A model generated the notes under the pieces. The model was not told the origin of the DNA. It worked only from the letters and a program-made list of their open reading frames with translations, and ran no database searches. The position numbers and the translations under genes were made by a program. A stretch of 64,000 bases of DNA, taken from the IMG/VR virus record IMGVR_UViG_3300028558_000791, positions 124,001-188,000 of that record. One strand, written 5' to 3'. Below, one piece after another: positions 45,079-45,775 of this stretch. The first letter of the stretch is position 1. Each line of letters starts with the position of its first letter. Source of the DNA: a virus.

Positions 45079-45152
45079 GCTGGCTTAGTATAACGGCATT
45101 ATTCTTCCCTTGTAACGAAGAGAACCGAGTTCGACTCTCGGCGCCAGCTCCA
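45079..45152 (+). tRNA. tRNA-Thr (TGT)
   Basis: A 74-nt tRNA with encoded CCA. Anticodon loop CTTGTAA gives TGT. T arm CCGAG-TTCGACT-CTCGG is perfect; the acceptor has 6 of 7 pairs. The closing anticodon-stem pair 31-39 is C-C. Discriminator T. Confidence 0.9.
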
Positions 45153-45177
45153 CTGCTAGCGGGTTTATACCCTAGCC

Positions 45178-45226
45178 GCAATCATCCCTTCAGGAATATA
45201 GGTACGTATTTAACCTAGATGATTGC
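45178..45226 (+). other. Spacer between tRNAs with inverted repeat
   Basis: The 90-nt spacer holds GCAATCATC (45178-45186) pairing perfectly with GATGATTGC (45218-45226). It may be a processing hairpin. No gene is seen here. Confidence 0.5.
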
Positions 45227-45242
45227 ATGAGAATACAATTAA

Positions 45243-45317
45243 GCCCATGTAGTATAACGGTTATTACCCGTCTTTGGTAAAGACGAAAATTGAGTTCGAC
45301 TCTCAACTTGGGCTCCA
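45243..45317 (+). tRNA. tRNA-Thr (GGT)
   Basis: A 75-nt tRNA with encoded CCA. Anticodon arm CGTCT-TTGGTAA-AGACG is fully paired and reads GGT. T arm TTGAG-TTCGACT-CTCAA. Discriminator T. The spacer downstream (45318-45410) contains TTCACT/AGTGAA arms but no gene. Confidence 0.92.
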
Positions 45318-45410
45318 GCGTCCTGTTTCACTAGTTTTCGGTTCAGTGAACAACATCTACTACTTCCTCAAAGTATGGATAGTTAATGGACGATTCTTTA
45401 AACCGAATAA

Positions 45411-45486
45411 GCCCGTGTAGCTCAGTTGATAGAGCACCTCACTAGTAACGAGGATGTCGGTGGTTTGATTCCACTCGCGGGCTCCA
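45411..45486 (+). tRNA. tRNA-Thr (AGT)
   Basis: A 76-nt tRNA with encoded CCA. Loop CTAGTAA gives anticodon AGT, rare in bacteria for Thr and needing A34-to-inosine editing for broad decoding. Stem CCTCA/CGAGG has an A-C mismatch at 31-39. D arm GCTC/GAGC is canonical. Confidence 0.85.
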
Positions 45487-45487
45487 A

Positions 45488-45706
45488 ATGTTTAAGACGA
45501 ACGTTTATGTAAGAGGTATTCGACAATCACCTACTTATTGGTACATTGCACATTCCACTTTGTTTTTCAGAACAGACAAAGAATCCGCCATCAAAATGCT
45601 GCATGTACATGATGTTGTAGAGATTGATAAATTTTTTCTAGGCGTCAGATATTCTAGTAAGTCATATGTAATTGAAATACCTGCTAACCAGCTCAAACTA
45701 AGCTAA
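45488..45706 (+). CDS. Small hypothetical protein between tRNAs
   Basis: A 72-residue protein whose ATG is 1 nt after the CCA of the upstream tRNA, and whose stop overlaps the first 5 nt of the next tRNA. No SD. tRNA 3' processing would leave a leaderless message. Beta-rich, with RGIRQSPTYWYIAHSTLFFR near the N terminus. No family recognised. Confidence 0.6.
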   Translation: MFKTNVYVRGIRQSPTYWYIAHSTLFFRTDKESAIKMLHVHDVVEIDKFFLGVRYSSKSYVIEIPANQLKLS

Positions 45707-45775
45707 TGTCGTATAGTGGTATTACGCTGCCTTCGTAACGCAGTCACGTGAGTTCGATTCTCACCTTTAGCTCCA
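45702..45775 (+). tRNA. tRNA-Thr (CGT)
   Basis: A 74-nt tRNA with encoded CCA. Loop TTCGTAA gives anticodon CGT; stem CTGCC/CGCAG has a C-C mismatch at 31-39. T arm GTGAG-TTCGATT-CTCAC is perfect. Its first bases contain the stop codon of the preceding gene. Confidence 0.9.

Follow-up and report, generated by a model that had tools for sequence, protein, structure and literature searches.

Threonine tRNA genes in the window

The window analysed here is a stretch of 64,000 nucleotides that makes up positions 124001-188000 of the 480,838-base virus record IMGVR_UViG_3300028558_000791. At positions 45079-45775 it carries a block of four threonine tRNA (tRNA-Thr) genes with all four threonine anticodons, three of which have an open pair at positions 31-39 of the anticodon stem. 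The genes lie on the plus strand at 45079..45152 (UGU), 45243..45317 (GGU), 45411..45486 (AGU) and 45702..45775 (CGU). ARAGORN and Infernal agree on all four (RF00005; 42.7, 53.5, 57.3 and 52.2 bits, respectively, against a gathering score of 29 bits), confirming the anticodons TGT, GGT, AGT and CGT read in a preliminary description of this DNA. Alternative folding had been named there as something that might displace the anticodons; in free folding, each anticodon base is mostly unpaired in all four genes (probability, 0.72-1.0), so no alternative fold shifts them.

The UGU, GGU and CGU genes have a GTATA-type D-arm, and the AGU gene has a canonical AGCTC/GAGC D-arm. Their anticodon arms are CTTCC/CTTGTAA/CGAAG (UGU), CGTCT/TTGGTAA/AGACG (GGU), CCTCA/CTAGTAA/CGAGG (AGU) and CTGCC/TTCGTAA/CGCAG (CGU). 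Positions 31 and 39 are an open C.C in UGU and CGU, an open A.C in AGU and a paired U-A in GGU, exactly the mismatch with C39 in three of four genes that had been noted. All four genes start with GC and end with GCTCCA, and have acceptor pairs G1-C72 and C2-G71, an encoded CCA and U73 as the discriminator base, the last of which also occurs in 33 of the 132 tRNA-Thr of a bacterial sample selected by pattern. Judged by their cloverleaf scores above threshold and their NGU anticodons, the four are genuine tRNA-Thr genes, and charging with threonine is predicted. A 72-residue open reading frame (ORF; 45488-45706) occupies the space from the AGU to the CGU gene, with its stop codon within the first bases of the CGU gene.

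The open pair in related viruses

Relatives were gathered by the Thg1-like protein encoded directly upstream of the block, which yielded 19 viral-contig loci (64-93% identical). At least one tRNA-Thr lies downstream of the Thg1-like gene in 16 of these 19 loci. All four anticodons are found in L502, L503 and L508, and the remaining loci with tRNA-Thr hold three, two or one; beyond the 19 loci, contig L102 carries the complete four in a span of about 370 bases. The full threonine box described earlier is real, but its implied uniqueness is weakened, since three related contigs and L102 are equally complete. The AGU tRNA of L502, in which the neighbouring gene is 93% identical, sits on a GTATA-type D-arm, while in the window, L508 and L509 it sits on other D-arms; going by these sequences, a change in the scaffold of the AGU gene separates close relatives. 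G37 is present in three of nine AGU genes of the lineage.

The lineage sample, comprising the window's record and its relatives with related contigs counted separately, contains 40 threonine anticodon arms. We observe an open 31-39 pair in 9/10 UGU, 8/8 CGU and 8/9 AGU genes (25 of 27 tRNAs with U34, C34 or A34), in 0/13 GGU genes and in 30 of 302 non-threonine tRNAs. Across the same 40 arms, pairs 28-42, 29-41 and 30-40 are intact throughout, and 27-43 is broken once. Most of the open threonine genes have a GTATA...ATTAY D-arm; the tRNA-Thr of the lineage that have canonical GCTC D-stems are also open (6/6). Because the contigs are related and most forks in the lineage tree are weakly supported, P values from this sample overstate independence. 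The UGU genes alone show C.C, U.U, C.A and A.C mismatches (four types) plus one paired A-U, so no single base is conserved. This variety is by itself no proof of selection against pairing, as only two of the six single changes from C.C restore a pair.

The open pair across viruses and bacteria

In broad viral and bacterial samples chosen by tRNA patterns, the 31-39 pair is open in 54/221 UGU, 12/27 CGU, 15/84 AGU and 0/48 GGU viral tRNA-Thr and in 70/2708 viral non-threonine tRNAs, and in 0/51 UGU, 7/40 CGU and 0/41 GGU bacterial tRNA-Thr. The bacterial pair follows the anticodon, being C-G in GGU and mostly A-U in UGU and CGU. The seven open bacterial CGU genes have A31.C39 and come from several unrelated groups (L146, L177, L208, L209, L222, L226 and L245).

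Since these samples were selected by pattern, the comparison was rerun with one pattern for viruses and bacteria. The first comparison had pooled tRNA scaffolds and was set aside: separated by D-arm, viral UGU genes are open in 45/67 cases with the GTATA type versus 1/65 with the canonical type, and canonical bacterial UGU genes are open in 0/43. Viral tRNA-Thr with a GTATA...ATTAY D-arm, a scaffold found in more than 100 viral contigs among the matches listed, are open in 8/10 CGU but 0/18 GGU genes. Taken by D-stem, tRNA-Thr with U34, C34 or A34 are open in 49/84 cases with GTAT and 13/204 with GCTC; on the GTATA D-arm, GGU genes (0/25) and non-threonine tRNAs (3/96) are closed or nearly so. 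Openness thus depends jointly on threonine, on a non-G wobble base and, for the most part, on the virus-type D-arm. No GTATA-type tRNA-Thr was found in 447 bacterial genomes from three phyla. In two phyla, no canonical-D-arm UGU tRNA-Thr with C39 was found among 148 and 149 bacterial genomes (297 in all); of 61 genomes from one of these phyla, 17 have the U39 form.

The rarity of AGT in bacteria, another point of the preliminary description, is borne out: none of the 132 bacterial tRNA-Thr in the pattern-selected sample has it, and a looser AGT pattern gave no ARAGORN-confirmed gene in 41 genomes. An AGT-only search of viral contigs returned at least 120 stretches. An initial view of AGT as common in viruses rested on that AGT-selected search and was dropped, as a search not selected for AGT found it in 2 of 76 viral tRNA-Thr with the same D-arm pattern.

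A literature search for 31-39 mismatches in phage tRNAs returned only a yeast paper, which, given the partial journal coverage, is weak evidence of novelty. The threonine block is real, conserved and, as part of a phage tRNA set, of an ordinary kind; its stem feature is unusual and apparently undescribed.

The tRNA set and translation genes of the record

The full record, read in pieces, contains 57 tRNA genes for 19 amino acids; tRNA-Trp was not found among them. They are clustered by amino acid, with 26 adjacent pairs of the same amino acid versus 2.4 expected, a value reached in none of 20,000 shuffles. Most of the tRNAs neighbour others of the same amino acid, which makes the threonine block one isoacceptor group among several (Ser, 4; Gly, 4; Leu, 4; Val, 3; Gln, 3; Arg, 3; plus further ones). 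By gene content, the block is no special threonine device and belongs to the almost complete set of tRNAs that this huge phage carries. The codon ACT makes up 0.464 of the threonine codons of this phage. A fifth tRNA-Thr gene, also AGU, lies outside the block (G000:45791, equal to L004:5791-5866); it starts with AA and has A1-U72, A2-U71 and C73, so the usual threonine acceptor pairs are missing.

The broad translation gene set typical of a huge phage is completed by a transfer-messenger RNA (tmRNA; 46047..46403, plus strand; ARAGORN; RF00023, 142 bits; tag ANDNAFAMAA), a tyrosyl-tRNA synthetase (1685..2902, plus strand; phrog_9270, E 1.1e-120) and translation initiation factor IF-3 (50816..51445, plus strand; PF05198 and PF00707). 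An RNA ligase of the T4 Rnl1 family, possibly involved in tRNA repair, is encoded at 26811..28064 (plus strand; PF09511, E 2.7e-12; phrog_562, E 1.3e-36). No PF00587 match that would indicate a phage threonyl-tRNA synthetase was found in the record. A phage TadA that could place inosine in the AGU tRNAs was considered and rejected: the only PF00383 match (G000:37495) looks like a cytidine deaminase, an identity that rests on the motifs SPYSNF and PCGACRQ judged by eye. The gene at L003:15734-17419, which adjoins a probable cytidine deaminase gene and a gene for an uncharacterised 281-residue protein, encodes a vWA/MIDAS-like motif (VMVDTSGSMG) and by eye resembles Ro60/TROVE proteins.

ARAGORN and Infernal also identify, on the plus strand, a tRNA-Arg(CCU) at 51455..51530 and two tRNAs with the amber anticodon CTA at 48924..48997 and 49183..49255, the second with an open C31.U39. 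The 31-39 pair is open in 9 of 18 CTA tRNAs of the lineage, and the record also has one tRNA with a TTA anticodon (L004:10073-10149). TAG is a rare stop codon here (11/355 ORFs). Recoding of TAG, prompted by the two CTA tRNAs, was rejected for the sole candidate, L021:14065-15645, which is open through TAG. This region reads as two adjacent genes, because in relative L607 a TAG near the equivalent place is followed by an ATG that aligns with one in this phage, where a GAGG shortly precedes it.

The Thg1-like gene upstream of the block (44084..44872, plus strand; PF04446, E 3.9e-18) belongs to the tRNA-His guanylyltransferase family. In all 16 lineage proteins examined, Asn replaces the catalytic metal-binding Asp, in contrast to Bacillus phage Goe8 and LR756508, which keep Asp in the DGR/DGK/DGS motif. 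This substitution suggests that the protein may bind tRNA without nucleotide addition. Its WRQxDA motif also seems altered (YKQQQN).

Interpretation of the open pair

The reasons for which phages carry tRNAs are still debated. The best reading of the data, which we advance tentatively, is that the threonine genes and their altered anticodon stem serve escape from a tRNA-cutting defence. The isoacceptor block would keep threonine codons readable during infection. The U34, C34 and A34 genes have positions 31 and 39 unpaired and lack the U36-A-A-U39 of most bacterial tRNA-Thr(UGU) and tRNA-Thr(CGU). The likeliest benefit would be resistance to anticodon-stem nucleases of the AriB/PARIS kind, such that open-pair phage tRNAs may stay functional while the host cuts its own. 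No change would be needed in the G34 tRNA, where 31-39 is usually C-G and U39 is thus absent from the outset.

AriB, the nuclease of PARIS, cuts Escherichia coli tRNA-Lys(UUU) and tRNA-Thr(UGU) and, less well, tRNA-Asn(GUU) and tRNA-Thr(CGU), between positions 40 and 41; the cut tRNAs have U36-A-A-U39 in common, changing U39 of tRNA-Lys to A abolishes cleavage, and T5 tRNA-Lys, tRNA-Thr and tRNA-Asn jointly overcome PARIS (PMC12409363). We observe that U39 is lost in the Lys(UUU) (UAAA), Thr(UGU) (UAAC) and both Asn(GUU) (UAAC, twice) tRNAs of this phage, and that UAAC is also found in Thr(CGU) and in Thr(AGU) of the block. In the lineage, U39 is present in 4 of 41 tRNAs of the AriB-target isoacceptors versus 278 of 477 in the broad viral sample; in tRNAs lacking U36, the difference is not significant (46/217 versus 495/1876).

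According to a proposal in the preliminary description, the phage may make up for host tRNA-Thr that is damaged or depleted; this proposal is partly supported. It fits the known nucleases that cut tRNA-Thr(UGU) and tRNA-Thr(CGU), such as AriB (PMC12409363); the flagged position 39 falls within the motif common to AriB targets; and the phage encodes an RNA ligase. Since AriB cleavage leaves 3'-OH and 5'-phosphate ends (PMC12409363), that ligase could in principle reseal cut tRNAs. The part that singles out threonine does not hold for gene content, since tRNAs for 19 amino acids are supplied.

Several observations weigh against nuclease escape. U39 is also reduced in other lineage tRNAs with U36 (6/75 versus 146/651), so its loss is not restricted to known AriB targets. 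Losses in Lys, Asn and Thr are not associated across unrelated contigs of the broad viral sample; such co-occurrence was our own prediction for one common nuclease, outside the published definition, and coordinated loss as proof of PARIS pressure was discarded. PARIS is thus not shown to be a general driver, and as the driver in this phage it is unproven. One lineage UGU gene has U31.U39 and one has A31-U39, both retaining UAAU, and the tRNA-Lys(CUU) of this phage retains UAAUCA. Finally, in Asn and Lys, U39 was lost through changes that kept the pair, and a second, threonine-specific reason is therefore needed for the open pair. A more specific proposal, which we regard as somewhat doubtful, is that a virus-specific GTATA-type tRNA-Thr scaffold with 31-39 selectively opened in U34, C34 and A34 tRNAs, never G34, would counter a widespread nuclease with specificity for the closed A31-U39 arm of tRNA-Thr.

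The block might instead provide plain translation supply, host-pool independence and codon matching, with 31-39 weakly constrained in non-G34 tRNA-Thr and free to drift. The large set of tRNAs grouped by amino acid, the high share of ACT codons alongside two AGT tRNA-Thr genes, the tolerance of A31.C39 by bacterial CGU genes and a mismatch variety such as drift would give all fit this explanation. We nevertheless consider it unlikely, because open UGU genes are absent in bacteria (0/51) and nearly so among canonical viral ones (1/65), which indicates that a constraint exists on this anticodon, and because open genes cluster in one D-arm type and one lineage (25/27). Tuning of decoding would account for the strong three-way dependence on threonine, wobble base and D-arm: an open 31-39 pair could offset a GTATA-type D-stem that is weak, or the lack of a wobble modification, and adjust codon recognition by U34, C34 and A34, with G34 exempt. 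Bacteria rank the strength of this pair by anticodon in like manner; however, the six lineage tRNA-Thr that have a canonical GCTC D-stem are all open, so the GTATA D-arm is not required, and this explanation seems distinctly improbable. Inheritance of both open pair and scaffold from the tRNA-Thr of an unsampled host group could draw on the A31.C39 CGU genes of several bacterial groups, yet the absence of GTATA-type tRNA-Thr from the 447 genomes and of C39 in canonical UGU genes from the 297 genomes leaves it very improbable.

As a signature, the open pair is sharp and can be tested: it concerns a single base pair of the tRNAs for one amino acid, varies with the wobble base, and is frequent in viruses but infrequent in the bacterial samples. 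If nuclease resistance is its function, the case of PARIS and T5 would extend to a whole virus-type tRNA family; if decoding is tuned, a trade-off between tRNA scaffold and anticodon stem would be revealed.

Comparison with known systems

This phage falls into the size class of the huge phages of Al-Shayeb et al. 2020 (PMC7162821), for which up to 67 tRNAs, synthetases, IF3, tmRNA and genes for tRNA ligation are likewise reported; the portions consulted do not mention isoacceptor grouping or the anticodon-stem feature. A defence-type toxin that also attacks tRNA-Thr reads G1-C72, C2-G71, G4-C69 and Pu5-Py68 of the acceptor stem (PMC11559606); read from the sequences, the phage UGU tRNA keeps these determinants, and GGU, AGU and CGU lack G4-C69. 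Phage tRNAs that evade tRNases through anticodon-loop mutations (van den Berg et al. 2023, PMC10264068) likewise differ from those of the host at the nuclease site. That study makes no mention of threonine, a mismatch or the anticodon stem, and the change seen here is in the stem pair that closes the loop.

The closest comparison is T5. Both phages have Lys(UUU), Thr(UGU) and Asn(GUU) tRNAs without U39, and positions 36-41 of tRNA-Lys(UUU) are UAAACC in both. T5 has one threonine anticodon, whereas this phage has four, and the resistance to AriB that was measured for T5 tRNAs is predicted here from sequence. The changes in T5 are paired (C31-G39 in both Thr and Asn, each giving UAAG), in contrast to the unpaired C31.C39 and A31.C39 of the tRNA-Thr described here.
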